This document shows positions 5,558-42,833 of a stretch of DNA of 48,811 nt, piece by piece. The translations under genes and the position numbers were made by a program. Every line of letters starts with the position of its first letter. Positions within the stretch are counted from its first letter, which is position 1. Source of the stretch: Pirellulales bacterium (GTDB lineage Bacteria > Planctomycetota > Planctomycetia > Pirellulales > JAEUIK01); contig JAIESQ010000064.1 in assembly GCA_019745975.1 (NCBI GenBank), positions 1 through 48,811 on the forward strand, read 5' to 3'. Under the pieces are notes generated by a model, which saw nothing but the letters and a program-made list of their open reading frames with translations, made no database searches and was not told where the DNA came from.

Positions 5558-5740
5558 TCCGTTTTGCGCGGCTGTGCTCACCGCGGCGCGATTGCCGGCT
5601 AAGAGCAACGTTTCGTGCTGGCAAGCTGCGACTGAAGTGACAGCAGCCGGCAATTCGATGCACTCGGCAGAGATCAACCGCGCAGGTGGCTAGGAAAGTC
5701 GCCGGCGCGCTCGCATACCAGCGAAACGGAGTTCGCACTG

Positions 5741-6085
5741 ATGAACCTCTTGAATCGCCTGCAGAATCTGCTGCTGTTTGGTCGCGGCCCGCGTCTGGCG
5801 AAGTTGGCCACGCTGATCGCGCGGCAGATCATGCCCGAGGTGTGGCCGCTTGTCGCGGGGCGCGTGCCGGAAATGTCGCCGGCCGAAGCGCGTGGTTACC
5901 TTCGCGCCCGCTCGGCCGAACTGATGCGAACGCGGATCGAAATGGAGCGTCGGTTCGACCGATCGCTGGCGCCGCGCGATGCGGCCAGTTTGCTTACCGG
6001 CGTGAGCAACGAATTGTTGGCGCTCATCGAGCAGCGCCGCCAGCAGGCGGTGCAGCAGCGGGGCGGGCTCAAGCGCGCGGCGTAA
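5741..6085 (+). CDS. Hypothetical 114-residue protein
   Basis: The ATG has GGAG at suitable distance in the preceding ACGGAGTTCGC stretch. The protein is helical and basic, starts with an amphipathic LLNRLQNLLLF segment, and contains MSPAEARGYLRARSAELMRTRIEMERRF, which looks like a long surface helix. There are no cysteines and no predicted signal peptide. I do not recognise a family. It lies alone between the tRNA-Cys gene and the convergent cytochrome protein, with a stop only 15 bases from that gene's end. Codon use is like that of its chromosomal neighbours, so it is likely a real core-genome gene of unknown role. Confidence 0.6.
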   Translation: MNLLNRLQNLLLFGRGPRLAKLATLIARQIMPEVWPLVAGRVPEMSPAEARGYLRARSAELMRTRIEMERRFDRSLAPRDAASLLTGVSNELLALIEQRRQQAVQQRGGLKRAA

Positions 6086-6100
6086 TCGCGCAATGGGACG

Positions 6101-9100
6101 CTAGCGCGCCGTCGCGGGCGCCTCGCCTGCCAGCGAACGCAGATAGGCGTCGAGATCTGCCAATTGCTGGTCGCTCAGGCCGGCCAGCAGCCCGGTCGGC
6201 ATCAACGATTGTTCACTAGCGCGCTGGCTGGCCAGTTCATCGCCGGTGATGCGCACCGTCGTATCGGGGCCGGTTTGCAAGAGCGTGCCGTCGGGCGATT
6301 CGTAGACGATCAAGCCGGTGAAGACGCGGCCGTCGCGGGTGGAGATGATCGTTGTGCGGTAGAGAGGCGCCACGTCGCGGCTGGGATCGACGATCGCCGC
6401 GAACAAATCGTCGCGGCTGAAGCGCGCCGCCGCGCCTGCCAGATCTGGGCCGAGCCGGTCGTTGCCGCGCCGTTCGTTGCCGCGATGACAGCGATGGCAA
6501 TTCTGCCGCTCGAAGATGGCGCGGCCTGCTTCCACGTTGCCTGCCGACCAGTTGATCGCCGCCAATCGAGCGCGCCAGGCGGCCAGGTCGATCGCAGTCG
6601 ATTGCTCCAGCGCGGCGGACTCGGCGGGGTGCTCTGCGCGGAACCAGTCGAACAGGGGTTCGTAAAGTTGGTCGAGTTCGGCGGCATCGATACCTTGTTC
6701 ATCAATTGCGAACGTGCGGCCGGCCGCGAGCTCGACCAGTGCGACGAGCCTGGCGCGGGCGTCGCGGCCTGCCCGAGGCGTTTCGCGATCGCCGGGTTTC
6801 GACCTGCTGCCAGGCGCGAGCGCCAGTTGCTGGTCGTCGCGAATCGTGCGATCGAGCGCGCGGAGTGCGGCGGCGATTTCTGCTGGTTCAAGTTTCGGCA
6901 AACTCCCGAGCGCGGCGGCCGCCTGGCGAACAACGCCAAGTTCGAACGAATCGAGGGCGGCCACGAAGCGCTCCCTGTCAACCGCCTGAGGATTGCGGGC
7001 TAGCACCGACGCGATCGCGTCACGGACGTTGGGATCGTCGGCGCGAGCGCGCAACGCGGGAAACAGCTCGTCGTTGGGCAAGCAGGCGAGCGCTTGCACC
7101 AACTCGGCGGTCCACGTGTTTGGTTCGTCGGCGTCAATTTCAGTGTTGTCGGATTCTTCGCCGGCTCGCTTGGTGGCAACCGCCGCGAGCAAACGGCGCG
7201 CGGCGGCCGGGCGATCCGTCTCGGGCATGGCCAGCACGAACATCGCGTGCTCGGGCAGGCCGAATGCCGGCGCAGCGCCCACGGCGCGGGCAAGGCTTGG
7301 ATCGCGTCGGCACAGTTCGCCAAAAGCCTCGGTCACGCGCAGTGGCCAGGTGCGGCTGACAAACTCGCCCCGCGCGGCCAGCTTGCCATGAAGTCCGACA
7401 AGCGCTGCTGCCGTGGCGTTCGTTACTTCTGGCGTGCGCGGTCCGCCGATTCTCGACAAGGCGAACAGGTAGTGCAGATCGTCCTGAGGAACGCTAGCGT
7501 TTGTTAGTTTCGCAGTCACGCGCTCCAGCACGCCGGGCACGTCGGCAGCGAGCATCGCCAGCACGCGGACAAGCTCGCGATCGAGCTCGGCGTCGTCGCT
7601 GGGCAAGAGCGGCGTCAGGCGCTTGGCAAGCATCTCGCGGTCCGCCGCCGGGAGATTCTCCGGTTTGCGGGCGACGTAGCCGACCATGCCGCGATCAGGC
7701 GGGCTTTCGATATCGACGTCGCCCAGGGCGAGCATAATCAAGCGCAGCGCTTCGAGACGCAGGTCGACGATCTTGCAATCGCTGGCAACGGAAGCCACAT
7801 ACGATACTCCAGTCGAACTGCCGCTCAGATCGAGCATGCTGTCTCCGACGCGCATCCCAAGGTGTGCAAGCCGCTTGCGGACGTAGTAGGGATCGGTCGG
7901 GTCGAGTGATCGAGCCAACGCACGTTCGTTTGTGCTGCGGATGTCCATTTGGACACCTCGCTGCTGTGCGATGATAGCGGCCCGAGCGTAACGGTCCGTC
8001 GAAGTCAGCGATTGCAACGTCGAGCCGACGATCAAGTCTCGGCGCATGCCGGCTTCGATTGCGGATCGCAAAACCAGCGGATCACCGTCGTTCACCAGGG
8101 TCGTGACGAGCTCCGCGTGGACTCGGTAGTCGTGAATTGTCGTTAACGTCCATGCCAGCCTGGCACGCACTTCTGGATCGCGCGTTTTGGCTGCGATTCG
8201 CGCAGCGGGCACCGATGGCGCTTGCCACAACTCAGTAACGACTTCGATTGCCCGCACACGATCGGCGACGGGCAGCGACTCGTCGAGAATCGCCGCTTCA
8301 ATCGCTGGTTGCCCAAGTTCTTGCGCTGCGGGAACCCACTGCGCCCGCGACCAGGCACTCAGCGGTTGATCTGCTCGCAATACCGAAAGTAGCTGGGCAT
8401 GTGCATCACCTCCTGCCGCGTCGCGCGCGCCGGGCTGCTCGTCGTTCCCCGCGTAGTAAACTCGGTACACGCTCCCCTGCGTGCGGCGGCCGCCAGTGGC
8501 GACGAACAGATCGCCGCGCGGGCCAATCTCCAAGTCGACCGGCGCTAAGCCACTCGAGCCTCGCGACTGCATGAACACCTCGGGTTGGCTCGTGAAGGTG
8601 CTGCCCGCTGGCGTGAGCGGCAAGAAGTACACGCGGCCAAAGGTCCATTCGGCGCCGAACAGTCCGCCGTGGTAGCGCTCCGGAAAGGCGCGATGCCGGC
8701 AACAGACGATGCCGGTCGGCGAGCCGCGCCCCAGCTCCGCGGCGCGCGGCACGTTGTCGGCCCACGACGCCGGTCGGCTCCAACTGGCCACGTGCCCTCC
8801 GGAGAGCCAGCCGTGCTCGCGGCCGATCGCCACGTCGAACAAGCGCGTCGGGGCGTACCAGGGCAAGTGATGATCGCGCTCGCCATCGCTATCGACCGTG
8901 AACATCTGCCCGCTGGGTGAAAACGCGATGTCGTACGGATTGCGAAAACCATGGGCGAGGACTTGTGTTTGCCGGCCATCGCGCGAGACGCGCAGGATGG
9001 CGCCCGAGCGCGGCTGCCGCACCGGTGAATGCTCGGCGGTGACGTGCAACGCGCTCACGCCGGCGTCGTTACCACAGACAACGTCGAACCAGCCGTCGGG

Positions 9101-9613
9101 GCCCAGCAGAATCGCGTGTGCACCGTGCTCACCTCCGCGCAGCCTGGCCCACGCCTCGGGCGGGGCGTCGGCGTGGCCATTGCCGTCGGCGTCTCGCAGT
9201 CGGCCGAGCATGCCGTCGCCGGTGAAGAGCAAGTCGTGGCCATCGAAGCAGAGCCCCTGCGCGCCCGAAGCCGGTAGCGAAGAGAATAGTTCCGCGCGAT
9301 CCGCCTGGCCATCGCCATCGTCGTCGAAGAGCGTTTTGACGTAGCCTGGCCCCGCGACGACGACGCGGCCCTTTGCGTCGAGGGTCATGGAATATATGTC
9401 GTGCGCCAGGTCGTCGCCCGCGTAGAGTGTGATGCGAAATCCCGCAGGCAAGTCGAAGTCGGTCGAGACGTCGGGCGGATTTGTGGCGGAAGCGGGAAGA
9501 TCTTCGGCTCCCGCACGTGCTGGCGAACCGTGGCACCAGGCGAGAATCGCCAAGGTGGCCGACAACAGAGCCGCAGGGCGCCAGCCGATCAATTGTGGCG
9601 ATGAGCCCGACAT
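6101..9613 (-). CDS. Secreted propeller/HEAT/cytochrome c protein (PVC type)
   Basis: This 1170-residue protein has a signal peptide (residues 1-35) and a glucose/sorbosone-dehydrogenase-like beta-propeller at about 50-390, with DGDGQADRAE-type calcium motifs and the GFRNPYDIAFSPSG signature. A helical-repeat (HEAT-like) region covers about 430-950. A C-terminal cytochrome c domain starts at about 1020, with heme-binding C1039-H-R-C-H1043 and the expected GPDLAGAAARFSRDDLFAAIVDPS continuation. Planctomycetes and Verrucomicrobia carry many such proteins, annotated as membrane-bound dehydrogenase or heme-binding proteins. They probably oxidise a sugar-derived substrate in the periplasm and pass electrons through the heme; substrate unknown. 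The start is ATG at 9613, in TGAGTGATG, so it abuts the stop of the upstream HEAT gene; GTG at 9616 is an alternative. Confidence 0.9.
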   Translation of the reverse strand: MSGSSPQLIGWRPAALLSATLAILAWCHGSPARAGAEDLPASATNPPDVSTDFDLPAGFRITLYAGDDLAHDIYSMTLDAKGRVVVAGPGYVKTLFDDDGDGQADRAELFSSLPASGAQGLCFDGHDLLFTGDGMLGRLRDADGNGHADAPPEAWARLRGGEHGAHAILLGPDGWFDVVCGNDAGVSALHVTAEHSPVRQPRSGAILRVSRDGRQTQVLAHGFRNPYDIAFSPSGQMFTVDSDGERDHHLPWYAPTRLFDVAIGREHGWLSGGHVASWSRPASWADNVPRAAELGRGSPTGIVCCRHRAFPERYHGGLFGAEWTFGRVYFLPLTPAGSTFTSQPEVFMQSRGSSGLAPVDLEIGPRGDLFVATGGRRTQGSVYRVYYAGNDEQPGARDAAGGDAHAQLLSVLRADQPLSAWSRAQWVPAAQELGQPAIEAAILDESLPVADRVRAIEVVTELWQAPSVPAARIAAKTRDPEVRARLAWTLTTIHDYRVHAELVTTLVNDGDPLVLRSAIEAGMRRDLIVGSTLQSLTSTDRYARAAIIAQQRGVQMDIRSTNERALARSLDPTDPYYVRKRLAHLGMRVGDSMLDLSGSSTGVSYVASVASDCKIVDLRLEALRLIMLALGDVDIESPPDRGMVGYVARKPENLPAADREMLAKRLTPLLPSDDAELDRELVRVLAMLAADVPGVLERVTAKLTNASVPQDDLHYLFALSRIGGPRTPEVTNATAAALVGLHGKLAARGEFVSRTWPLRVTEAFGELCRRDPSLARAVGAAPAFGLPEHAMFVLAMPETDRPAAARRLLAAVATKRAGEESDNTEIDADEPNTWTAELVQALACLPNDELFPALRARADDPNVRDAIASVLARNPQAVDRERFVAALDSFELGVVRQAAAALGSLPKLEPAEIAAALRALDRTIRDDQQLALAPGSRSKPGDRETPRAGRDARARLVALVELAAGRTFAIDEQGIDAAELDQLYEPLFDWFRAEHPAESAALEQSTAIDLAAWRARLAAINWSAGNVEAGRAIFERQNCHRCHRGNERRGNDRLGPDLAGAAARFSRDDLFAAIVDPSRDVAPLYRTTIISTRDGRVFTGLIVYESPDGTLLQTGPDTTVRITGDELASQRASEQSLMPTGLLAGLSDQQLADLDAYLRSLAGEAPATAR

Positions 9614-32139: not shown

Positions 32140-35100
32140 TTATCGCGACGGTTTCGATTCCGATCCTTCGGTTTTCCGCGGTGAACCGTTGCCACCCTGG
32201 CTCGCGGCTACCCGCTCCTTCAGGGCCAACCCCACGGCCGACAACCACTCCAGTTCGGGCGGAGCGTAAGGGCGGAACTTCTCCAAGCCACCCTCCTCCT
32301 CGCGGTGCAAAAGAGCCCGCCGCTTCCCTAGCTGGCTAGCGGCCGGCGTGTCGATCAGCAGGCTCGAATCGGCCGCGCTCATCTGCAATAGCACGCGCAA
32401 GGCGAACTGCTTCAACATCCCGCGGTCGAGCATGCGATTGAAGTTCGTCAGCGTGTCGCACCAGACGAGCACATGGATGCCCAGGGCAGGTCCGTCGCGC
32501 AAGAGATCGGCGAACTGGCGGTCGGGCTTGGGCCCCTCGCTGTCGCCGCGGCGCGAGAAGCTGAATTCCTCCTCCTGCCGGCGCAGCTCACGCAGCCGTG
32601 GCAGATCGTAAACCACGAAAACGAGCAGCGGCGCATCCCCGGAGGTTGTCCGGCGCCGCTCGAGTTCGGCGTGCAACCCGGCGACAATCGCCGGCCCATC
32701 GGCCGCGGCGGCAATCTGCGCTTCGTGCGGCAACGCAGCGGCGAGCGCTCGCAGCGCGGCGTGTTGCGGGCCGTCGACCGGTCCGCCGTCGAGCACGACG
32801 AACTTCACGCCAGGCGAGTCATTTCCTTGACCGGTTGGTGCTAGCTGCGCCGCCAGGCTTACGATCGCCGCGCTCAACATGCCGGCTGCCGCCTCGTCAT
32901 TCTGGCCGACATACAGCACGTTGGCGGCGTCGCGTCGCGCCAGCGTGACGGTCGTGGCGTCAGCGATCGCCAACGGCTCGCCTAACCACGCCCGCGGTTG
33001 TCGGGGCGCCGCGGACCAGGCAGTCGCCGTTACCAATTCGTAGAGTGCTTCGTTACGCTCGAGTTCGGCCGGCTGCATCCCTTCGAAGACGATCTGCGGG
33101 TGGCGTGGCACCATCGCCGGACGTTCTGCGGCCAGCCGCTGCACGGCTTCGAGAAACACCTCGCGGCGATCGTCGGGCAGCCACACGACCTGGAACGGAT
33201 GGTTCCCTTCGACCAGGCCGTTGGCATCGTTGTAGATCGCCTCGCCGGGGCGCGAAAGCAGCCGGGCGGCGGTGTTGTCTTCGCTCAGAATTAGGTGCGC
33301 GTCGGTTTCGCTGCACTGCAAGGCGATGCGCACGGCCATCTGTCCGAGCGTGCTGCGCGCCAGCGAATAAGCGCCGCCCAAAGTTTGAGAACCAAGATGG
33401 ACGTGAATGCCGAAGGCGCGGCCTTGCCGCACGAGACGATCCAGCAAGAGCGACGCTTCTTGGGCGAGCCGATCGTCGGCGACGAAAAACTCCTGAAACT
33501 CGTCGACGATGAACAGGATGCGCGGCAGTTGATGCCCGGCGTCGCGGAAGCCCGCGATATCCTGCACGCCGGCAGCACGAAACCGCTCGCCGCGATCGTG
33601 CATTTCGGCATCGAGCCGCTGCATCACGCTGAGACCGAATTCGCGCTCGCTTTCGATGGCCACGACCCGGGCGTGCGCAAGCGCGTGCGTGACGTACGTC
33701 TTGAACTCGACCCCCTTCTTGAAGTCGATCAAATAAAGTTCGAGCTCCTCGGGGCTGTAGCGCAACGCGGCATTGACAATCAAAGCGTGCAGCAAGGTCG
33801 ATTTGCCCGAACCCGTCTTGCCGGCGATCAGCACGTGCTGGGCGATTCCTTGACCGAGCTTGAGGTGCTGCAACCGCGTGGCGCCGACGCGCCCCAGCGG
33901 AATATCGATTCCGCGGCGGCTGTCGGCGGTCCAATAGCGGTCGGCTGGCGGCGCGATTGCCTCGAACGGCACCTCGACTCGTTTGGCTCCCACGGCCGCC
34001 TGACCAACGGCGTGCAGGACGCGCTTTTGCCAATCGGCGGACGGAGGTGGATCGACGACCAGCGGCAAGTGTTTGAAGTCGGGCTCGAGCCACGCCAATC
34101 GGTCGCTCGTGGCCGTGAACACCGTGCCATACTGCGCCAGATCATTGGGACCGATGCCGGCGGGGCGCGGCAACCGTGCATCGGCCGAGAGCAGCGTATA
34201 GACACCGCAACGCGGGCCAGTCGCCACGATGCTCAGGAGCCGTCGCACGGCGATTTCCGAGAACCCGGCCCGAAAATTCGCCACCACGAGCACGCGGAAC
34301 GGTTCGGCGATTTCGCCCGCCTGCGCGTTGTAGGCTTCAATCGTCGCGTATTCGCTGCGCAGGTACTTCTGGATGACCGTTTCCATGTGTTCGGTCAGAT
34401 CGGCCAGTCGTTGCTCGATCTGGTGCGATTCGGTCCAGATGCGGTGCGTCACCAAAGCCTCGTCGAAGTCGGCCAGGTGCATAAAGGCGGCGAAGTTCTG
34501 CCCCAGACCGGCCGGATCGATGATCGTAAACCGCACTTTTCCCGGCGGAACCGTCGTCAACATCCGCAGCATGAGCACTTGCAACAACTCGACGGCCCGT
34601 TGCCGCCCTGCATCTTGTGCTTTGATGTAGACTGAGCCGATCTGCGGAAAGCCGTACAGCGCCGGTAGCGCAAACTCGAGCGACTGGGCGGCTTCGCCTC
34701 CTTCGCTGGGCGTGGTGTCGGCGACGGTCGCTTCTCCCAGGAACGGCCGCACGTCGAACGTCAGTCGTCCGAAGCGCAACGCACCAGCATCAAGCTGCGG
34801 CGGGTGCCAGTCGAGCCAGGCGCGCGAATTCCACTCGGGGCAGCGGCGTTCGACCTCGCGGCGAATGGCGGCAATCTCGGCACGAGCTGTGGCCAGCCCC
34901 TGCTGCCAGGCCGCTACAGCCGCGGCGCGCATCGTGTTGAACTTGTGATCGCCAGCGGCCAGCGTTTGCTCGGCGTTCGCCCTGGTGTTGGCCGTTTCCT
35001 CGTCACAGCGGCGGCGCGCGTCGAAGTGCCGCTGCGCATGGCGATCGGCCGCGCGGCGCTGATCGGCATCGTGCCGGCGCGACAGATTCTTGAGCTGTTC

Positions 35101-36141
35101 GTCGACCGAGGCTACGAGCCTTGGCAGTTCAGCTTCGCGGCGCCGCTGGCACTCGACTACCGCCGGGCCGTGCTTCTCGATCGCGGCGCGCAGGTCGGCC
35201 TCACGCTTGTCGCGGATGTCGCCGCGGTGTCGCTTGTTCGCGGCCAGCGACCGCGCCAGGCAGTGCTGACACCAGTCGGTCGCGTCGCGCGCCGCGCCAA
35301 TCAACGGACGAACGATCTGCGCTACTTGTCGGCGTGCGAGCCGCTTCAGCCAGACGGTCAGCCCGACCCCGATGACAAGCGCCGCGCTGGCGGTGATCGC
35401 CAGCCAAGGCACGAGCGACCAACGGCACAGCCACCCGACCGGCGCGGCCAACAGCACGGCGGGCCCCAGGAACAGCCACACGAGCCCCGCGCCCGACGTC
35501 AATTTCGGCACGCCGAGCTCTTTGAGCTCCGCCAATCGCGCGGCGAGCACTGTGCATGTGTCATCGAGCGCGGTGGTGGGATCGGCGTCGGCGGTGGGCT
35601 TGTCAATCTGCGACTCGCGAGCCGTCGCTGCTTCCTCGGCGACGTTCGCCTGACCATAGCGATCAAGTACGCCAATCGCTTCCTGCTCGGCGGCCTGAAT
35701 CGCCTGCAAGCGGCTTTGCAATTGGAGTTGCGTCTCGGCAAGTTGTTGCTTGAGGCGCTTGCGCGCTCCTTCATAAACGGTCTGAGCCAGCCAGCGGGCT
35801 TCGTCGAACGTATGCTTGGCCTGTTTCTCAGCGGTATCGAGCTTGGTCGTTAATCGCTCGATGGCAGCGTGGCCTTCTTCACTGGCGGTTGCGCGCTGGG
35901 CCTCGAACGTGCTGACAATCGACGTTTGCGCTGCCTTGAAGTCTTCGTCGGCGACCGCGATTTCAGCGGCATAGTGCGCCTCGCTATCGGCTAGCGCGGC
36001 ATCACGCTTGGTTTGCGCGGCTTCGCGCGCAGCGCGGAGCGCGGCGGTCAACGATGTCTCGCTCTTGGCGCGCTCCTGAGCTAGCCGCGCCAGCTCGCGC
36101 AGAACCGTTCGCTGGCGATCGACGAGGTTCGGAGAGCTCAT
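32140..36141 (-). CDS. FtsK/EccC-like membrane-anchored ATPase of a type VII-like system
   Basis: I chose the ATG at 36141 (MSSPNLVDRQ); an ATG at 36198 is in frame. The 1333-residue protein has a coiled coil at about 10-190, two membrane helices at 219-238 and 243-265, a second coiled coil at about 285-430, then three FtsK/SpoIIIE-like ATPase modules. The first (about 465-740) has no Walker A. The second has GKTGSGKS at 774-781, followed by ALRYSPEELELYLIDFKKGVEF, Walker B ILFIVDEFQEFF near 873 and HVHLGSQTL. The third (about 1080-1300) reads NVLYVGQNDEAAAGML in place of a P-loop. Three modules with membrane anchor parallel EccC/EssC of type VII secretion, though the intact module is in the middle. 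It closes the WXG100-like gene set. Confidence 0.88.
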   Translation of the reverse strand: MSSPNLVDRQRTVLRELARLAQERAKSETSLTAALRAAREAAQTKRDAALADSEAHYAAEIAVADEDFKAAQTSIVSTFEAQRATASEEGHAAIERLTTKLDTAEKQAKHTFDEARWLAQTVYEGARKRLKQQLAETQLQLQSRLQAIQAAEQEAIGVLDRYGQANVAEEAATARESQIDKPTADADPTTALDDTCTVLAARLAELKELGVPKLTSGAGLVWLFLGPAVLLAAPVGWLCRWSLVPWLAITASAALVIGVGLTVWLKRLARRQVAQIVRPLIGAARDATDWCQHCLARSLAANKRHRGDIRDKREADLRAAIEKHGPAVVECQRRREAELPRLVASVDEQLKNLSRRHDADQRRAADRHAQRHFDARRRCDEETANTRANAEQTLAAGDHKFNTMRAAAVAAWQQGLATARAEIAAIRREVERRCPEWNSRAWLDWHPPQLDAGALRFGRLTFDVRPFLGEATVADTTPSEGGEAAQSLEFALPALYGFPQIGSVYIKAQDAGRQRAVELLQVLMLRMLTTVPPGKVRFTIIDPAGLGQNFAAFMHLADFDEALVTHRIWTESHQIEQRLADLTEHMETVIQKYLRSEYATIEAYNAQAGEIAEPFRVLVVANFRAGFSEIAVRRLLSIVATGPRCGVYTLLSADARLPRPAGIGPNDLAQYGTVFTATSDRLAWLEPDFKHLPLVVDPPPSADWQKRVLHAVGQAAVGAKRVEVPFEAIAPPADRYWTADSRRGIDIPLGRVGATRLQHLKLGQGIAQHVLIAGKTGSGKSTLLHALIVNAALRYSPEELELYLIDFKKGVEFKTYVTHALAHARVVAIESEREFGLSVMQRLDAEMHDRGERFRAAGVQDIAGFRDAGHQLPRILFIVDEFQEFFVADDRLAQEASLLLDRLVRQGRAFGIHVHLGSQTLGGAYSLARSTLGQMAVRIALQCSETDAHLILSEDNTAARLLSRPGEAIYNDANGLVEGNHPFQVVWLPDDRREVFLEAVQRLAAERPAMVPRHPQIVFEGMQPAELERNEALYELVTATAWSAAPRQPRAWLGEPLAIADATTVTLARRDAANVLYVGQNDEAAAGMLSAAIVSLAAQLAPTGQGNDSPGVKFVVLDGGPVDGPQHAALRALAAALPHEAQIAAAADGPAIVAGLHAELERRRTTSGDAPLLVFVVYDLPRLRELRRQEEEFSFSRRGDSEGPKPDRQFADLLRDGPALGIHVLVWCDTLTNFNRMLDRGMLKQFALRVLLQMSAADSSLLIDTPAASQLGKRRALLHREEEGGLEKFRPYAPPELEWLSAVGLALKERVAASQGGNGSPRKTEGSESKPSR

Positions 36142-36287
36142 CCCAGGGCAATATCCTGATCCTAAACAACTGCCAAAGTCGCCGCGTGCTGCCGACAAAA
36201 CGAGTCTACCTCATGCGCCCGATCCACGCGAAACGGGTGATAACGCTCGCAGTTCATACCCGCTGCGCTCCACGACATACGAGCCAG

Positions 36288-36515
36288 TCAATCGCGCTCG
36301 CGGCAGTCCTGTTCGGCCCGGGTGAGCACTTCGGCCAACTGATCGATTGCCCGCAGCGCACCGGCAATCTTGGGCTCGAGCGGCTCGAGGTGATCGCGCT
36401 CGAAATCCAAACCGACCGGGTCACGCCAACTGGCTTGTACTTCATCCCACGCCAGCCGCAGCTTCTGCGCGGCATGCCGCAGTTTCGCTTTGCCATCGTA
36501 CAGGCTGCTCGTCAT
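36288..36515 (-). CDS. Second WXG100-like small helical protein
   Basis: The 75-residue protein starts in an ATGA overlap with the stop of the upstream coiled-coil gene, so it is translationally coupled. It is a helix-turn-helix hairpin: KAKLRHAAQKLRLAWDEVQASW, a W30-R31-D32 turn, then FERDHLEPLEPKIAGALRAIDQLAEVL. The W-x-D turn and length match the neighbour at 37173, where the turn is W43-R44-D45. WXG100 proteins of type VII secretion have W-x-G at the same place. It has no signal peptide. I read it as a second ESX-like substrate or structural subunit; the family assignment is by pattern only. Confidence 0.7.
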   Translation of the reverse strand: MTSSLYDGKAKLRHAAQKLRLAWDEVQASWRDPVGLDFERDHLEPLEPKIAGALRAIDQLAEVLTRAEQDCRERD

Positions 36516-37162
36516 CGTCGCGGATTCTCGCCTTCGTGCGTGGCATCGTCTGCGGTCTCTTCCTTGTGCGGCTCGGCCGGGATGGCCGCCGATACCTCTC
36601 CAGAGTGCCCGGCTGACACCCCTGTCGACTCGCGCGCACTCCCCTCGCGCGGCGCTGCGGCAGTCTTCAATTCGGGCGGGGCCAGTTGGGTGTACTCAAT
36701 GAGCAGCGCCACGATGCGGTCCAACCTGGTGACGGCTTTGGGTAAATCGGTCGCGAGCGCGCCTGCCAGCGGCTCGGCGTGAGCCTGAAAGTCCAGAATC
36801 GCCTCTTCGACGATAGCAGCCCAACGTCTAACGGCGGCCAGTTTCTCCTCGGCTTCCTCCAGGCGGCGCTTCGCCTGTTCCACGAGTTTCTTCTCCTGAT
36901 GACAGCTCGGCGTGCGATGCGGATCGATCGTGGCGGCCAGACAGCGATGTAGATCGCTCTTGGCCTCGGCCAACCGTTCGTCGCGGACACGAATTTGATG
37001 CTGCCAATACTTGAATTGATCGTGCCCCAACCAATTCAAGAACCGCTCGGCGTCGGACCGCACCGTCGCCAGTCCCTGGCTGGCCTGGTCGGTGAAAATG
37101 GATAACGCCGCTCGGAACTGTTCAAGCGCTTCGATCGATTGAACGCGGGCCGTGCGACTCAT
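36512..37162 (-). CDS. Coiled-coil protein of the type VII-like locus
   Basis: The ATG at 37162 lies 10 bases after the stop of the WXG100-like gene; the frame is open further upstream to 37294 but that would overlap it. The 216-residue product is helical: residues 8-60 (SIEALEQFRAALSIFTDQASQ), a long coiled coil at about 50-125 with HQEKKLVEQAKRRLEEAEEKLAAV, a second helical bundle to about 165 (PKAVTRLDRIVALLIEYTQLAPPE), and an acidic Pro/Thr/Ser-rich disordered tail of 50 residues. I do not recognise a family. Its place between the two WXG100-like genes and its fold suggest a chaperone, adaptor or large ESX-like substrate. Confidence 0.7.
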   Translation of the reverse strand: MSRTARVQSIEALEQFRAALSIFTDQASQGLATVRSDAERFLNWLGHDQFKYWQHQIRVRDERLAEAKSDLHRCLAATIDPHRTPSCHQEKKLVEQAKRRLEEAEEKLAAVRRWAAIVEEAILDFQAHAEPLAGALATDLPKAVTRLDRIVALLIEYTQLAPPELKTAAAPREGSARESTGVSAGHSGEVSAAIPAEPHKEETADDATHEGENPRR

Positions 37163-37172
37163 GATCTTTGGC

Positions 37173-37445
37173 TCATCGCTGCCGGAGGTACTCGTCGATG
37201 CGATCGGCCTTACGCAGCAGGAAGGGTACGTGCTCTTCGACCGCTTCGACAAAGCCGGCGATCGAGCGCATGGTGCGTTCGAACTCCTCGCCAAATCGCT
37301 GGTGCTCCTTGTCGCGCCACGTCTCGCCTAGCGATTGAAATTGCCCGTGCAGCATCTGCATCTGGGCCTGTAGCTCGCTGTTGAAACGCTTCAGGTTGTT
37401 GGCAAACCGGCGGAGCTCTTCGGGGTCGACAATGGCCTGTGACAT
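37173..37445 (-). CDS. WXG100-like protein, first gene of the type VII-like locus
   Basis: The 90-residue protein begins MSQAIVDPEELRRFANNLKRF with AGGTGA just before the ATG. It forms a helical hairpin: helix one to residue 40 (FNSELQAQMQMLHGQFQSLG), a turn E-T-W43-R-D45, and helix two HQRFGEEFERTMRSIAGFVEAVEEH, with a C-terminal LLRKADRIDEYLRQR helix. Length about 100, Trp at residue 43, absence of signal peptide and absence of Cys match WXG100 proteins exported by type VII systems; Asp replaces the Gly of W-x-G. It is the first of four closely spaced genes ending with an FtsK/EccC-like ATPase. Confidence 0.82.
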   Translation of the reverse strand: MSQAIVDPEELRRFANNLKRFNSELQAQMQMLHGQFQSLGETWRDKEHQRFGEEFERTMRSIAGFVEAVEEHVPFLLRKADRIDEYLRQR

Positions 37446-38312: not shown

Positions 38313-41300
38313 GTGATCTCCCCTGCCCGAGCCATCGACGACCTGTTCGATAACGACGCCGAGACTACTTCTACCCGTCCTTCAAACCGCCTGACCAACC
38401 CCGCCGCCGGCCCCGAACCCGCAGCAGCCGAACTGCCGGTGGTCTTGCAACTCTTAGCCGACGAGCCCCGCGCCTACCTTGCCGCACGGCTCACGCGCCG
38501 CAGTTTCAAAACAAGCGAAACGCTGGCCAGCGTTGGACAACCGTGTCAGGCGATGTGGTTTGTCGCCCGCGGATTGGTCGATGTCCAGTTTGCCTCGGAG
38601 ATGGTGCACGCGTTGGGCATGCCGGGCCCGATCCTGCGTGCCGGAGACAGCTACGGCAGCCATGCATTCGAGCCGTCGGCGACACACAGCGTGACGCTCA
38701 CGGCGATGTCCGACGTTGAAGTTTGGGAACTCTCTGCTGACGATCTCCGCGCGGCCTGCGCGGCTCACGCGTCTTGCCTCAACTGGTACGAGAACATTCT
38801 CAGTCGGCGAATGGTAGCCGGCTTGTTTGTGCGGCTGGTTCAATTGAATCCTGCCGCCGCCGGGCAACTGGCGCAGCTCGCCGATCGACTGGTGGCGGTC
38901 GACGTTGCCGCAGGTCAAGTCATTCAGCGCATCGGCGAGCCAGTCGACGTCTTGCGAATTCTCGAAACCGGCGCACTCGTGGCGATTCCGAACGCCGGCG
39001 CACAGCACCTGGGACGCGGCGCCACCGAGTTGGGCCCTGGCAGCGTAATCTCGGCGGCAAGTTTTTGCCTCCGCGCCGCGGCCGCTGTCGACATCACGGC
39101 CATGATGAATTGCCGGGTGTACGAACTATCGAACGACGCCGCGTCGAACGACGACCTCGCATTTCTCCGTGCCGCTCTCGGCCAGTTGATTTCCCTGGGG
39201 CTCGACGTGCAGCCCGCCGGTTCGGCCGGTACCGAAATTGATCGCTCCTGTGTCGCCTACGATGGCAATGGCACGCACGTCGAGCTTGGCGAGGCGACGC
39301 AGCCCGCCTGGTGGCGCCGGCTCCCGCAGCGGCGGCAACGCGAGGAGATGGACTGCGGAGCCGCCTGTTTGCGGATGATCCACTCTTTCTACGGACACGA
39401 AATCGGCGACCGCGAAGCCCGCCAACTGGCTCGCGTCTCGCGTTATGGCACGTCGCTGGCCGACTTGAGCGAAGCTGCCGAGCGGCTGGGCTACCTGCCG
39501 GTCGGGGTCGAAGTGCCCGAAGCCGATGCGCTGTCGAACGTACAGCTCCCCGCGATCGCCCATGTCGATAAGAACCACTTTGTCGTGGTGTGGCGCGTCT
39601 CGTCGCGGCACGTGGAAGTCGGCGACCCAGCGATCGGCCGCACGAAGCTGCCGCGAGCGGCATTCGTCGAGCGTTTCGGTGGATTCCTGCTCTTGGTGCG
39701 CCCCACCGATACCACCGGCAAGACGCCGGCCGCGAAGGAAGTCACGCAGCAAGCCACTGGGGCGACCAGTACCTGGCGCAAGCTGTGGCCCTTTGCCCGG
39801 CCGCATCTGGGCACGTTCGGTTATGTGCTCTTGGCTTCCGCCTTGTTGCAACTGTTCGGGCTGGCTGGGCCGATGCTCACGCAGGTGATTATCGATCGCG
39901 TGATCGGCCACGGCGAAACGCGGCTGCTCCCGATCGCGTTCGGCGCGCTGTTGCTAACAACCGTGTTCGGCGCGATTGTCGGATACGCCCGCAGCCAGCT
40001 CATGCTGCACGCCTCGCTGGCCATGCAGCGCACATTGATGGAAACGGTCTATCAACGGATGCTGTCGCTGGCCCATTCGTTCTTCTCGCGGTTCACAACC
40101 GGCGATCTGGTGCGGCGCTTCGGCGAAGTCGACGAAGTGCGGCAGTTCTTTACGAGTCACGCCATCTCGTCGCTCGTCGACGTGCTGATGGTCGCGACCT
40201 ATGCCGTGGCTTTGGTCTGGATGCAGCCGGCCATGGCGGGCCTGTTCATCGGCATCCTGCTCGTTGGCCTGGTCGTTTCGCTGCTGGTCGCCCGACCGGT
40301 GCGCAGCCACACCAAATTGCACGTGCAGAAGTTTGGCCGCGTGAACACCCACGTAATCGACTCGTTCCGAGGCATCGATCCGGTGAAAGCCATGAGCCTC
40401 GAACGGCCGTTCCGCCGCTGGTTCGGCGATCTGCTGCGACCGTCGATCGAGTTCGGCCGCCGGGCCGCGACCTGGTCGCTCGCTTCGGCGACCTTGATTC
40501 AACTGCTCGATGGCATCAACTCCGGCGTGCTGCTGTATCGCGGCACCTCGCGGGTGCTCGAGGGCGCGATGACGATTGGCCAGTTGATGGCCTTCTTGAT
40601 GCTCAGCCGGCAACTGTCGGCACCCGTGCTGCGGCTGCTCGAACAATGGGACGAGTTCCAGCGCACCGTGGTGAGCCTCGAACGGGTCGGCGACCTGCTC
40701 GAGGAAACCTCCGAACGCGACCATCAAGAAAGCCGTGGCGCGATGCTCAAGCTGCCCAATCCGCGCGGCGCCATTCGCCTGGAAAACCTCTGCTTCGCTT
40801 ACGCGCGTGACCCCAAAGACTCGAACCGCCGCGTGATCGACACCATGAGCCTCGAGATCAAGCCGGGCGAAGTCGTGGGGATCGTCGGCCGCTCGGGCTG
40901 CGGCAAAAGCACGCTGGCTCGATTGCTGTTGCGATTCGAGGAGCCAACCAGCGGCCGCATCCTGCTCGACGGCATTCACCTTCGCGATCTCGATCCCGAA
41001 GCCTTGCGGCAGCAGGTCGGACTGGTCACGCAAGACGCCGTGCTCTATAGCGGCACGATCCGCGACAACATTCTCTGCGGCCGGCAAGACGTCAGCGAAG
41101 AAGACATGGTCCGCGCGGCCCAAGCGGCCGGCGCCTACGACTTCATCAGCGAGCTGCCCTACGGCTTCGAAACCCGCATCGGCGATCAAGGCATGAAGCT
41201 CTCCGGCGGGCAGAGCCAGCGGGTGGTGATCGCCCGGGCGCTGTGCGCCGATCCGCGGATCCTGATCTTCGACGAGGCGACGGCCGCCCTCGACCCGCTC

Positions 41301-41519
41301 TTGGAACGCGACATTCACGAAGGGCTACGCGAAGTCATCAAAGGGCGCACCACGCTGATCATCGCCCACCGGCTGCACACGCTGCGGCGGGCCGACCGGA
41401 TCGTGGTGATGGACCGCGGCCGGCTGGTCGAACAGGGAACGCACACCGAGCTGATGGCCCAGCAGGGTCTGTACTACCAGATGTACACGGCCTCGCCCGA
41501 CTGGCAGGGACAGGAGTAG
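38313..41519 (+). CDS. Cyclic-nucleotide-binding/C39 peptidase/ABC exporter fusion
   Basis: GTG at 38313 has GGAGGG upstream. The 1068-residue protein has two cNMP-binding-like beta-roll domains at about 60-165 and 190-295 (GQPCQAMWFVARGLVDVQF, then AGQVIQRIGEPVDVLRILETGALV). A C39 peptidase follows at about 335-475 with C348 in EMDCGAACLRMI, H422 in KNHFVVVWRV and D438 in VGDPAIG. Next come a six-helix ABC membrane domain (about 495-770) and an ATPase with Walker A GRSGCGKS 859-866, signature LSGGQ 963-967 and Walker B ILIFDEATAALD. This is the architecture of peptidase-containing exporters for double-glycine leader peptides. No precursor peptide or HlyD-like adaptor is visible next to it. 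The cNMP-like domains suggest gating by a ligand. Confidence 0.92.
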   Translation: MISPARAIDDLFDNDAETTSTRPSNRLTNPAAGPEPAAAELPVVLQLLADEPRAYLAARLTRRSFKTSETLASVGQPCQAMWFVARGLVDVQFASEMVHALGMPGPILRAGDSYGSHAFEPSATHSVTLTAMSDVEVWELSADDLRAACAAHASCLNWYENILSRRMVAGLFVRLVQLNPAAAGQLAQLADRLVAVDVAAGQVIQRIGEPVDVLRILETGALVAIPNAGAQHLGRGATELGPGSVISAASFCLRAAAAVDITAMMNCRVYELSNDAASNDDLAFLRAALGQLISLGLDVQPAGSAGTEIDRSCVAYDGNGTHVELGEATQPAWWRRLPQRRQREEMDCGAACLRMIHSFYGHEIGDREARQLARVSRYGTSLADLSEAAERLGYLPVGVEVPEADALSNVQLPAIAHVDKNHFVVVWRVSSRHVEVGDPAIGRTKLPRAAFVERFGGFLLLVRPTDTTGKTPAAKEVTQQATGATSTWRKLWPFARPHLGTFGYVLLASALLQLFGLAGPMLTQVIIDRVIGHGETRLLPIAFGALLLTTVFGAIVGYARSQLMLHASLAMQRTLMETVYQRMLSLAHSFFSRFTTGDLVRRFGEVDEVRQFFTSHAISSLVDVLMVATYAVALVWMQPAMAGLFIGILLVGLVVSLLVARPVRSHTKLHVQKFGRVNTHVIDSFRGIDPVKAMSLERPFRRWFGDLLRPSIEFGRRAATWSLASATLIQLLDGINSGVLLYRGTSRVLEGAMTIGQLMAFLMLSRQLSAPVLRLLEQWDEFQRTVVSLERVGDLLEETSERDHQESRGAMLKLPNPRGAIRLENLCFAYARDPKDSNRRVIDTMSLEIKPGEVVGIVGRSGCGKSTLARLLLRFEEPTSGRILLDGIHLRDLDPEALRQQVGLVTQDAVLYSGTIRDNILCGRQDVSEEDMVRAAQAAGAYDFISELPYGFETRIGDQGMKLSGGQSQRVVIARALCADPRILIFDEATAALDPLLERDIHEGLREVIKGRTTLIIAHRLHTLRRADRIVVMDRGRLVEQGTHTELMAQQGLYYQMYTASPDWQGQE

Positions 41520-42833
41520 AGCGAGCGACCTGGGTAACAGGGGAGCGAGTGGGTGGGCGCGACTCTTCCGGTTCTCCTGCTCTTGGCCGCAGGCCGCGGC
41601 GATAGGCTTGCCTCCCCAGTTGGGGGTCCCCCAGAAAAAGATTGTCCGGGAATTTGCGTCCGGGTGCGTCCGGGTGTGTTGATATTGGACCGTAAATCGA
41701 ATAGTTGGCACAACTTGGGGCGAGTGTAACACCGGGCATTTTGCGTCCGGGTGATCGTCCGGTTTGCGTCCGGGTATTTTGATATTGGACCCGAACTCAA
41801 ATAGCGGGCACAACTTGGGGCGAATGTAACACCGCGTAGTTTGCGTCCGGGTGTCTTGGTATTGGACCCGAGTTCGATTGGAGTACACAACGAGCCGCCC
41901 GATCCCTAGCGGGGATATTAACAGTCGCATCTTGAACCTCGCGCCAAGGCGCGCTGGCGCCAAGAGCCAAAGTTGCCTGTCCGCCGATTTCGCAGAGGAC
42001 GCAGATTCGCCAGCGGCAAAGACAACGCATCTCATCCGTGGAATCCGAGATATCCGTGGTCGAATGTTTGGAAGTGTGCGCGCACGGCGGACGCAGCTCT
42101 CCGAAGCCGACTTTGACAAACGATTCGTTGAATCGCGAAGTCCCTGGACAAGATGCGCGGCGGGTTAGCATCTCAAGAGCGCGCAGGCTGGCGCGCCAGG
42201 TGGCTCCTGGAGTGGCTCGTGTTCAGTTTTCGGTGGTCAGTGTTCAGGGGAACGCGGGGCGCGCAGCAGCGCCGGGCGGCTTTCCGCAGGTGTGCCGTCA
42301 CTGGAGCAATGAACGACCCCTACGGGGTCGCGGCTCAGGTCGGATCGTGTACCGAGGCCTGACGGCGCCTGACGGCCTCGGCTGATAGAACCGGCCCTTC
42401 AGGCCGGAGATCATTTGTGCGACTCACGCACGGCGGTCGGAGAACATCTCGCCGCGGCGCGGCTTGATGGTTCGATTGCGACTCGGTTCCGTGGGTTGCA
42501 ACCACGACTAAGCGCTCTGGCCGCTGGCGCGGCTCCGATGCAGCGTCCGCCGGCGTGGACGCTTGCGCCCGCACGTCGTTGGTCACGGGCACCGGCGGCG
42601 AGTTCTCCCGCCGGCGGGCCGGCTCGGCTAGCCAGGCCATAGGTGCCCTCCACGCCTGGTTACACGTGTCCCCCGCAGATTTAGGCCCTGTCAGTGAAGT
42701 TCATTCGTCGTGGTGCACGCGGCACCATGCCGGCCAGGGACGTACAGCGCACCGCAATTCAAACGGGGAGCTCAGCTTTGGAATTGATCCCCGTCCGGTT
42801 CAGTTCTTTCCAAGTCGAGTCCCGAATTGGCGA
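41520..42833. other. Gene-free, repeat-rich region
   Basis: This 1.3 kb has no gene that I can support. It contains the TTGCGTCCGGG tandem block (41643-41890), a TGTTCAGTTTTCGGTGGTCA-type string at 42220-42250, the hairpins CGACCCC-TAC-GGGGTCG (42315 region) and CCGGCC-CTTCA-GGCCGG (42390-42410), and a GC-rich stretch to 42660. It separates two convergent genes and has the look of accumulated mobile and palindromic elements. Confidence 0.6.
41643..41890. repeat. TTGCGTCCGGG repeat with an exact 100-base period
   Basis: TTGCGTCCGGG occurs at 41654, 41741, 41764 and 41841. GATATTGGAC occurs at 41681 and 41781, and CACAACTTGGGGCGA at 41709 and 41809, each exactly 100 bases apart; GTAACACCG follows both. 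A third, partial unit ends near 41890. About 2.4 tandem copies of a unit are present, with the 41643 copy matching the one at 14437. Confidence 0.7.

Follow-up and report, generated by a model that had tools for sequence, protein, structure and literature searches.

The four-gene locus

The window, the whole stretch of 48,811 nucleotides of Pirellulales DNA that was analysed, carries four closely packed minus-strand genes between positions 32140 and 37445. As an earlier note on this DNA had claimed, they encode a WXG100-like protein (g1), a coiled-coil protein (g2), a small hairpin protein (g3) and a large ATPase:

32140..36141, minus strand: ATPase, 1333 aa from ATG, with three FtsK-type modules (Pfam/NCBIfam, Walker A pattern, Kyte-Doolittle, Foldseek)
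36288..36515, minus strand: g3, 75-aa small helical protein with W30-R-D32 (invariant W and D, profile matches)
36512..37162, minus strand: g2, 216-aa predicted long helical hairpin, helices 7-77 and 88-159, with a disordered tail (AlphaFold2)
37173..37445, minus strand: g1, 90-aa WXG100-family hairpin protein with invariant W43-R44-D45 (PF06013 and relatives)

The g2 start codon is ATG, and g3 overlaps g2 by 4 nt; the ATPase frame is open further upstream, to a TTG at 36198. A promoter and terminator scan was uninformative. The five flanking genes tested include no known part of a type VII secretion system (T7SS; EccB/D/E, mycosin, EsaA/EssA/EssB, YukD/EsaB), in agreement with the claim that no such partner is recognisable nearby.

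The g1 protein matches the Pfam WXG100 family (PF06013) at an E-value of 7.9e-11 (42.5 bits, cut-off 27.3), and thereby passes the profile check that the earlier note had proposed for it. By Pfam, a WXG100-family protein is thus encoded with the ATPase, as in T7SS, whereas the NCBIfam model TIGR03930 gives 35.3 bits, below its cut-off of 44.85. The W-R-D motif is invariant in 60 of 60 g1 proteins, and all 33 aligned relatives match WXG100 at E-values up to 1. The C-terminal export signal of T7SS (YxxxD/E or HxxxD/ExxhxxxH) is not a feature of g1: YxxxD/E occurs near the end of none of the 60 g1 proteins, and HxxxD/ExxhxxxH in 17 of them. No additional WXG100 substrate was found in the window's own genome, and 111 of the 112 WXG100-positive genomes of the phylum have a single match, so there is no pool of WXG100 substrates. 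In ten loci lacking g1 beside g2, no replacement for g1 was found.

The same profile check gave a more divided answer for g3, as Pfam WXG100 matches only 8 of 41 members (best E 0.0013). A g3 profile in turn recovers 12 of 60 g1 proteins at E<1e-3, and from these profile matches g3 is probably a distant relative of g1 and WXG100. The motifs reported earlier, W43-R-D45 in the 90-residue protein and W30-R-D32 in the 75-residue protein, are both as described; each is a W-x-D rather than a W-x-G. Among g3 relatives the W and D are invariant (76/76), with R as the middle residue in only 9.

The long hairpin g2 is harder to place. Foldseek gave no match at E<=0.001, and VIA-align returned only generic long helices, with a best Z of 11.2, a level that the tool's notes call common for long helices. 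LXG, EspB and PPE proteins are not among the structural matches, an absence that excludes none of them. Kinship with WXG100 is not claimed, because single-family profiles reached only E 0.0023 (g2 against g1); iterated profiles merged all three small families. No effector or toxin domain was found on the window's g2, and its tail is predicted to be disordered. It therefore lacks the layout of a polymorphic toxin, in which a conserved carrier bears a variable C-terminal toxin and an immunity gene goes with it. All but one of the planctomycete g2 proteins seen have a tail lacking any sign of a domain, and so the planctomycete machine looks toxin-free.

The ATPase bears out its earlier description as a 1333-residue protein with two membrane helices and three FtsK-like modules. 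A Kyte-Doolittle plot shows two hydrophobic segments, around residues 220-236 and 247-263 (positions converted from a 1352-aa frame), and only the middle of the three modules has a Walker A pattern. The pattern is likewise confined to the middle module in the 27 ATPases of the new family examined, with the exceptions in module count that only two modules were detected in L088, L101 and L144 and that L141 is split. Planctomycete ATPases mostly have the membrane hairpin.

Comparison with EccC/EssC models, another of the checks proposed, came out partly in favour of the earlier suggestion. The T7SS ATPases are the best-scoring NCBIfam models (EccCa 6.6e-29, EssC 4e-27, FtsK 2.8e-7), but the scores are far below the curated cut-offs (101 bits against 509 for EccCa, 94 against 778 for EssC). 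The FtsK equivalog score, 28.6 bits against a cut-off of 1566, does not identify an FtsK DNA translocase. The best match in a PDB sequence search is 4nh0 (E 4.2e-30), named T. curvata EccC in the Foldseek listing, and the first eight Foldseek rows are EccC/EssC chains (3.7e-31 to 2.7e-17), with FtsK next at 7.8e-16. By VIA-align, in contrast, FtsK motors are the closest fit to the active module (Z 31.0, 278 residues, 2.5 A), ahead of EssC/EccC two-module fits (Z 28.7 and 27.8). In a module tree built without L141, any first module or 12 of the 17 planctomycete third modules, the FtsK-type rows form a clade of their own (100/99) without the new modules. The new middle modules also lie outside the EccC plus Wss group, in a tree without Bacillota EssC. 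The ATPase is thus not a member of EccC/EssC by curated model or by clade, and the grouping with DNA translocases that the earlier note had named as a refutation did not appear in the tree. A plain FtsK translocase was set aside on clade, profiles and co-inheritance, even though the fold of the active module fits FtsK best.

Co-inheritance and linkage in the phylum

The ATPase, WXG100 and g2 were surveyed in the same 393 genomes of the window's phylum, with 115, 112 and 116 positives, respectively. ATPase and WXG100 occur together in 111 of the 115 ATPase-positive genomes (Fisher 4e-92), and g2 is found in all 115 (Fisher 1.8e-100). The small hairpin g3 is present in 72 of the 73 ATPase-positive genomes in which it was tested, against 0 of 20 ATPase-negative ones. 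Only one of the 278 ATPase-negative genomes (G387) has WXG100 and g2. Cultured species with the ATPase include Singulisphaera acidiphila, Limnoglobus roseus and Tautonia sociabilis.

The genes need not be neighbours. ATPase and WXG100 are separated by over 10 kb, or sit on separate contigs, in 32 of 111 genomes, and in two (G174 and G391) all four genes are away from one another. The 110 ATPase-bearing loci reduce to 98 distinct ones; the upstream DNA reaches 2.2 kb or more in 52 of these and falls short of it in 46. Among those 52, the DNA before the ATPase holds g1 in 32, g2 in 42, g3 in 42 and all three in 31. The four genes are therefore co-inherited across the phylum even when scattered on the chromosome; the keeping together of all four, which the earlier note had proposed to survey, holds within the genome, but not always on the chromosome.

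No further conserved neighbour of the set appeared in the 98 loci, many of which have short flanks. Clusters taken, from place and strand, as overlapping frames of the four genes were left out of this count, and the widest remaining family occurs in only 13 of 98 loci (46 with less than 2.2 kb upstream) and looks generic. Where g1 and the ATPase gene are unlinked, 20 loci of each share no new family among the neighbours listed.

Relatives and known systems

The earlier note had proposed a distinct planctomycete branch of type VII-like export. The evidence supports a type VII-like set that is neither T7SSa nor T7SSb: g1 is a WXG100 protein, the four genes are co-inherited and the tree places the active module in neither the FtsK clade nor the EccC group. 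"Planctomycete" proved too narrow: relatives occur in Chloroflexota and on four plasmids, of Deinococcus, Rhodococcus, Caballeronia and Helicobacter, several of whose matches are given in bits rather than E-values because the searched sets are very small. One plasmid copy adjoins transposase genes. In Chloroflexota relatives of the ATPase the membrane hairpin is kept, missing or replaced by WD40 repeats, and hence it is not essential to the core. CARF, vWA, PP2C and kinase genes lie alongside the Caballeronia set, and TerD genes near the Rhodococcus set. In the Caballeronia set the gene after that of the protein at the g2 place encodes a 113-aa product.

Unassigned C-terminal regions occur on some Chloroflexota and Rhodococcus g2 proteins. 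From motifs, the Chloroflexota tails may be ParB-like in L110 and L139 and PDDEXK-like in L098; in Pfam, L139 matched only ParB_N (E 0.1), and L098, L110, L136 and L106 matched nothing. The Helicobacter sp. plasmid (L196) carries, in order, a g1 homologue (56 bits), a 340-aa protein with nuclease domains (PF14414 1.1e-11 and PF12639 9.8e-9, both over cut-off), an SMI1/KNR4 gene of the SUKH immunity type (PF09346 1.6e-6, over cut-off), a 77-aa protein and an ATPase homologue (179 bits, 823 aa). Equivalence to g2 and g3 here rests on order and neighbours, because neither profile finds those proteins (-3.3 bits for g2, 4.1 bits for g3). By its predicted domains, a nuclease with a SUKH-type immunity gene at the g2 position is a toxin-export layout.

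Among viral contigs, 86 pattern matches were obtained with two short patterns only, and none was confirmed. A phage collection gave 182 matching records. The best of them (H61, E 3e-50, 46% of the query) is a 10.4-kb contig, unverified, that encodes a homologue of 1424 aa (242 bits) and has no clear g1 or g2.

Parts of this set have been described before. Zhang et al. (2012, PMC3482391) reported solo WXG domains that go with a distinct YueA-like ATPase, in which the middle one of three HerA/FtsK domains is alone active, and footnote 6 of their Table 1 names planctomycetes and other groups and speaks of "mobile versions of T7SS". The ATPase layout, the WXG protein and the planctomycetes agree with our set; the planctomycete sets are often unlinked, and the passages concerned are silent on g2 and g3, on the membrane hairpin and on copy number and co-inheritance.

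A 2024 paper on CoCoNuT systems (PMC11090510) describes a soluble cousin that is encoded in restriction operons along with two WXG100 proteins and a nuclease bearing a coiled coil; its authors consider a mechanism unlike EssC likely because membrane helices are lacking, and still expect secretion. That ATPase too has three modules, the centre alone predicted active, and an N-terminal coiled coil, and it goes with a coiled-coil protein and two WXG100-type proteins, one without WxG. The window matches this composition, with g1 clear, g3 probable and g2 predicted. It does not share the CoCoNuT form, which has no membrane helices, a nuclease on the coiled-coil protein and a place inside a restriction operon; the planctomycete set has a hydrophobic hairpin, is nuclease-free and stands alone.

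A Helicobacter "WXG100 secretion system" cluster (PMC4978471) resembles L196 in its WXG100, FtsK/SpoIIIE and HNH/EndoVII-type nuclease genes. L196 differs in its short ATPase (823 aa) and in having the nuclease protein and SMI1/KNR4 gene at the g2 place, and its 77-aa gene corresponds to g3 in position alone. T7SSa (EccC), T7SSb (EssC) and T7SSc-j, described only from Bacillota and Actinomycetota in the passages concerned (PMC11217815), share a WXG100 protein, a membrane-anchored tandem FtsK-type ATPase and small helical partners. The planctomycete set differs from them in its single active module, its W-x-D motifs, its scores below NCBIfam cut-offs and the absence of any known T7SS membrane part or YukD from the tested flanks. 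A Wss-type Chloroflexota locus (L143) resembles the new set in its small WXG100-like genes and the FtsK modules of a giant protein; by eye, another of its proteins looks YukD-like. The FtsK modules of L143 fall with EccC modules 1 and 2 rather than with the new family, and the genome that contains this locus (G461) also holds a copy of the new set. The set is not wholly new, since solo WXG with this ATPase, and a soluble cousin, are already in print; strict co-inheritance, a toxin-free membrane-anchored form and anchor swapping are new as far as the literature was searched.

A proposed mechanism and its alternatives

Computation gave the composition of the set, the family of g1, the predicted shapes of g2 and the ATPase, the co-inheritance and the toxin/immunity layout of a relative; from here we infer complex formation, a hexamer, export, outer-membrane passage and the purpose of the set. 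We put at about even chances the reading that the set is related to the type VII (EccC/EssC) export machine, in a compact form anchored in the membrane. In this picture the ATPase would presumably be a hexamer at the inner membrane, its two helices serving as the anchor; one of its rings would be a working motor and the other two degenerate. The small hairpins g1 and g3 would bind the long hairpin g2, in the way that LXG carriers are bound by WXG100/Lap partners, and hand it to the ATPase, which would move g2 across the inner membrane or use it as both gate and cargo. Relatives may have a C-terminal effector region on g2 or on the protein that takes its position, and the nuclease/immunity pair at that position in one relative makes export plausible. 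The other reading in the earlier note, a non-secretory ATPase with small helical partners, may nevertheless be the right one. The planctomycete machine would be a toxin-free looking, mostly single-copy chromosomal set. Perhaps, and we hold this more tentatively, it is a once mobile toxin-delivering WXG/EssC-like set turned housekeeping machine, with four mostly single-copy parts, toxin-free and kept by selection rather than linkage, its small WXG proteins fixed parts and not exported substrates.

Counted against the reading as an export machine are the lack of known T7SS parts among the five flanking genes tested, the Helicobacter link by order and neighbours, the lone WXG100 protein per genome, the missing YxxxD/E, the sub-cut-off models, the FtsK-like fold fit, middle modules outside the EccC plus Wss group, the variable membrane hairpin, the toxin-free g2 of the window and the lack of any known outer-membrane part for the set. 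Rather unlikely, in our judgement, is an intracellular conflict or defence machine, in which motor and hairpin adaptors would work inside the cell and g2 effector domains would attack nucleic acid when a sensor (WD40, TerD-like, CARF) is triggered, the immunity gene acting as antitoxin. The soluble or WD40-bearing ATPases of Chloroflexota, the genes beside the Caballeronia and Rhodococcus sets, the FtsK-like fit of the active module and the CoCoNuT cousin in restriction operons (PMC11090510) all speak for it. Against it, planctomycete ATPases mostly have a membrane hairpin, g2 in planctomycetes has no effector domain, the 98 loci, many of them with short flanks, show no conserved defence genes next to the set, and SUKH-type immunity genes typically go with exported toxins (PMC3482391).

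A cargo-free structural or regulatory membrane complex, for example in envelope or chromosome handling, with g1-g3 as fixed subunits and no export, would account for a single-copy, strictly co-inherited and often unlinked set with no substrate family. Its presence in only 115 of 393 genomes means that it is not essential for the phylum, and some relatives have the toxin/immunity layout, so that we regard this alternative as improbable. Least credible of all is a mobile version of T7SS moving as a cassette, the term used in the footnote of Zhang et al. (PMC3482391): plasmid copies exist, one beside transposase genes, but the planctomycete genes are often apart, as in the 32 of 111 genomes and in G174 and G391. 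The type VII-like export machine remains our preferred reading.

Most descriptions of type VII export come from Gram-positive bacteria and mycobacteria, and the window belongs to a two-membrane phylum. Found in 115 of the 393 genomes sampled, and co-inherited though scattered, a minimal relative of only four parts amounts to a natural experiment on a type VII-like machine. By that experiment the indispensable parts would be a motor, two small hairpins and one long hairpin, with membrane anchor, toxin and immunity as add-ons. It also ties together separate published notes on solo WXG proteins, the CoCoNuT extension and the Helicobacter WXG100 cluster.

The four-gene locus and its proteins

Four genes, g1, g2, g3 and an ATPase gene, lie packed together on the minus strand at 32140-37445, as claimed in an earlier note on this DNA, with 10 nt between g1 and g2 and 146 nt between g3 and the ATPase gene.

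37173-37445, minus strand: g1, 90 aa, first in transcription order
36512-37162, minus strand: g2, 216 aa, second
36288-36515, minus strand: g3, 75 aa, third, overlapping g2 by 4 nt
32140-36141, minus strand: ATPase, 1333 aa, last

Nothing stands out among the flanking genes: one side has a NUDIX gene and an ABC transporter that includes a C39 peptidase domain, the other has genes for a cytidylate-kinase-like protein, a redoxin-domain protein and an M50/CBS protein. The transporter (38313-41519, plus strand, 1068 aa, with cyclic-nucleotide-binding and C39 peptidase domains) is upstream of the set on the opposite strand, past the NUDIX gene. Two copies of a 100-base unit with 85% matches form a tandem array at 41657-41853, and a partial third copy of 53 bases reaches 41891.

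The 90-residue g1 protein, with its W43-R-D45 turn, had been called WXG100-like, and the Pfam profile agrees: it is a WXG100 protein in Pfam (E 7.9e-11, above cut-off), and falls below the stricter NCBIfam cut-off. All 33 aligned relatives match WXG100 with E values no higher than 1, the lowest being 1e-12. W43-R44-D45 is invariant in 60/60 relatives, and the C-terminus, EYLRQR, is almost invariant, with Y86 present in all 60. The export motif YxxxD/E occurs in 0/60 g1 proteins, and the HxxxD/ExxhxxxH pattern in 17 of them. For g3, the proposed second hairpin with W30-R-D32 holds in part; W30 and D32 are invariant (76/76), but the residue between them is free in relatives. With E<1e-3 as threshold, a single-family g3 profile recovers 12/60 g1 proteins; hhalign gives E 6.9e-5 at a probability of just 63%, and the Pfam family touched by most g3 members is WXG100 (8/41, best E 0.0013). 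Judged from these comparisons, g3 is probably a distant WXG100 relative. No family match was found for g2. AlphaFold2 predicts helices at 7-77 and 88-159 with high confidence and a disordered tail, and fold searches returned generic long helices and nothing else.

The ATPase contains three FtsK-type modules and two hydrophobic segments, in agreement with the modules and membrane helices described before. Among 27 ATPases of the new family (the ATPase found with g1-g3, and its relatives), three with just two modules detected and one with a split middle module, the Walker A pattern is confined to the middle module. In 90 relatives no shorter than 1250 aa, hydrophobic segments were counted over residues 1-700 by a simple scan: 60 relatives have two, 17 have three, 11 have one, and 2, both from Chloroflexota, have none; a closer look at 12 ATPases revealed two (L038 and L039) with hardly any hydrophobic segment.

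By sequence, the ATPase is nearest to the ATPases of type VII secretion (T7SS), as the earlier note supposed, but all NCBIfam matches (EccCa 6.6e-29, EssC 4e-27, FtsK 2.8e-7) are far under curated cut-offs. The evidence from structure comparison is mixed: Foldseek places eight EccC/EssC chain rows first (3.7e-31 to 2.7e-17) and then FtsK (7.8e-16), whereas VIA-align of the active module places the FtsK motor first (Z 31.0, 278 residues, 2.5 A), with two-module EssC and EccC fits behind it (Z 28.7 over 491 residues and 27.8 over 498). In a tree of 64 modules, drawn without any Bacillota EssC, the third modules make up a single clade (100/99), as do the FtsK-type rows (100/99). The first and second EccC modules cluster with modules of a Chloroflexota Wss ATPase (90/92), and EccC third modules lie by themselves. 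The middle, Walker A-bearing modules of the new family fall outside the third-module, FtsK-type and EccC groups. They are not recovered as one clade, since those of L138, L139 and L144 branch off on their own, with two changes required for the label. Considering the profiles, structure fits and module tree together, the ATPase has an EccC/EssC-like build on a branch of its own, and its motor module is no closer to EccC than to FtsK.

Co-inheritance and linkage

The same 393 genomes of the window's phylum, evenly drawn and at least 90% complete, were searched three times, giving the ATPase in 115, WXG100 in 112 and g2 in 116. ATPase and WXG100 occur together in 111 genomes and both are missing from 277; four have the ATPase without a WXG100 match (G316, G424, G428 and G450) and one has WXG100 without the ATPase (G387), an association with Fisher p 4e-92, ignoring relatedness of the genomes. 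The g2 gene accompanies the ATPase in 115/115 genomes and is found in one further, again G387 (p 1.8e-100, with the same disregard of relatedness). Positives and negatives are mixed inside families f1, f15 and f21. G387 carries g3 as well, so that the missing ATPase may be due to a gap in its assembly. All four genomes of the opposite kind have g2 and g3, and g1 is diverged or lost in them. Among the 73 ATPase-positive genomes (from the 115) in which g3 was sought, all but G442 have it (72/73), compared to 0/20 ATPase-negative genomes tested. A single WXG100 match was obtained in 111/112 positives; in G300, a second match falls at its g3 gene. As a control, the same WXG100 search over 14 known genomes touched just Bacillus subtilis. 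A few genomes have two copies, and G430 has two ATPases, two g2, two g3 and one WXG100.

The ATPase and WXG100 genes are within 10 kb in 79 of the 111 genomes, farther apart on one contig in 10, and on different contigs in 22, some possibly through assembly breaks. Six single-contig genomes have them at least 0.47 Mb apart (G114, G174, G203, G268, G391 and G435), and G174 and G391 have each of the four genes at a place of its own. Since so many genomes have the two far apart, linkage is not the reason for co-inheritance. The expectation that the four genes are conserved together in planctomycetes is thus correct for the genome, but on the chromosome they are often unlinked.

In ten loci, g1 is absent beside g2, g3 and the ATPase (L043, L061, L064, L070, L072, L080, L083, L096, L097 and L103); of the two Singulisphaera acidiphila loci, L035 includes g1 and L061 lacks it. 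Five loci, including L067, L071 and L084, have a GNAT acetyltransferase gene (by eye) just before an ATPase without adjoining g1-g3.

Relatives in other phyla and on plasmids

The earlier suggestion of a planctomycete branch proved too narrow, with relatives in Chloroflexota and on plasmids of Deinococcus, Helicobacter, Caballeronia and Rhodococcus. In Chloroflexota, the ATPase occurs in 9/400 genomes, and the gene order is g1-g2-g3-ATPase (L098, L136), ATPase-g1-g2-g3 (L138) or g3-ATPase-g1-g2 (L140). An N-terminal hydrophobic hairpin is present in the ATPases of L136, L140 and L141 and absent from those of L135, L138 and L139. WD40 repeats can be seen by eye in the N-terminal part at L098, at L142, which shares a contig with L111, and at L134, which is truncated by the end of its contig. 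At L110 (5779-9838), two separate genes, each with an ATPase-like N-terminal coil, one hydrophobic segment and WD40 (Pfam), precede a short ATPase, as if the ATPase anchor part had turned into separate proteins. The g2 proteins of L098, L110, L136 and L139 carry an extra C-terminal region, in which Pfam finds nothing beyond ParB_N at E 0.1; planctomycete g2 tails are 4 to 128 residues long, except in L106 (210) and one truncated row. One Chloroflexota genome with a copy of the new set also has a Wss-type locus (L143, G461:C22), with a YukD-like protein (by eye), a 2945-aa protein of six to seven FtsK modules, and small WXG100-like genes, one of them supported by a profile.

Beside its 947-aa ATPase, the Deinococcus plasmid (L144) has a gene of 142 aa whose product ends in a hydrophobic stretch, a pair of small genes weakly WXG100 in Pfam (21.6 and 23.3 bits, under cut-off), and proteins that score weakly against the g2 (12.5 bits) and g3 (20.6 bits) profiles. 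Matches on the next three plasmids are given in bits because the searched sets were tiny (14 and 26 proteins). In Helicobacter sp. NHP19-012 (L196), the order is a g1 homologue (56 bits), a 340-aa protein with C-terminal nuclease domains above Pfam cut-offs, an SMI1/KNR4 protein, a 77-aa protein and the ATPase (179 bits). In Caballeronia (L193), it is g1 (87 bits), 436 aa (weak to the g2 profile, 10.6 bits), 113 aa, 76 aa and the ATPase (282 bits), followed by CARF, vWA, PP2C and kinase genes; the first of these (7503-9296), directly after the ATPase, is of CARF-PDDEXK type (PADLOC E 9e-271). Rhodococcus (L194) has an ATPase (346 bits), g2-like (17.8) and g3-like (10.0) proteins and g1 (36 bits), with a TerD gene nearby; the N-terminal part of its ATPase (3709-7677) resembles, by eye, the TerD protein. 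The g3 profile missed the proteins at the g3 place on these plasmids, and the g2 profile missed the one at the g2 place in Helicobacter, so that these are equated by position only. An ATPase homologue (242 bits) also occurs on a gut contig that bears a phage label, where no clear g1 or g2 is present.

Possible functions: export or intracellular conflict

The closest cousins of the set are already in print. A table footnote of Zhang et al. 2012 (PMC3482391) records solo WXG domains in planctomycetes and other groups, together with a distinct YueA-like ATPase whose three HerA/FtsK domains include one active one, in the middle, and calls such sets mobile versions of T7SS. In the CoCoNuT operons described in PMC11090510, the relative comes with a coiled-coil nuclease, a DNA-mimic-like protein and a pair of WXG100-type proteins; that paper expects secretion, though through a mechanism that differs, and for a secretion system standing alone it refers to Anantharaman et al. 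2012. PMC4978471 names a 'WXG100 secretion system' in Helicobacter, Gram-negative WXG100/FtsK sets are described as unconfirmed in PMC10765036 (citing Sutcliffe 2011 among others), and T7SSa-j are described from Bacillota and Actinomycetota in PMC11217815. In the non-subscription literature searched, no paper turned up on FtsK, WXG100 and WD40 together, nor did the co-inheritance, the membrane-anchored toxin-free form or the WD40 exchange.

How might such a set work? The Helicobacter plasmid has the arrangement of a type VII toxin export set: a WXG100 gene, a carrier with a nuclease, an immunity gene, a gene for a small hairpin protein and an EssC-like ATPase. In this arrangement, g2 would be the carrier, with g1 and g3 as its partners, and we infer export by the set; no toxin is present on the planctomycete g2 proteins seen. 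The strongest competing explanation is a conflict machine acting inside the cell, because motors without the membrane hairpin, and motors with WD40 repeats, occur and soluble cousins are found in restriction operons; we consider this rather unlikely for the window's set. The locus itself is real, conserved and more coherent than the earlier note could see. With about even confidence, we take it to be a toxin-free, membrane-anchored member of the family that would move or gate a g1-g2-g3 bundle at the inner membrane.
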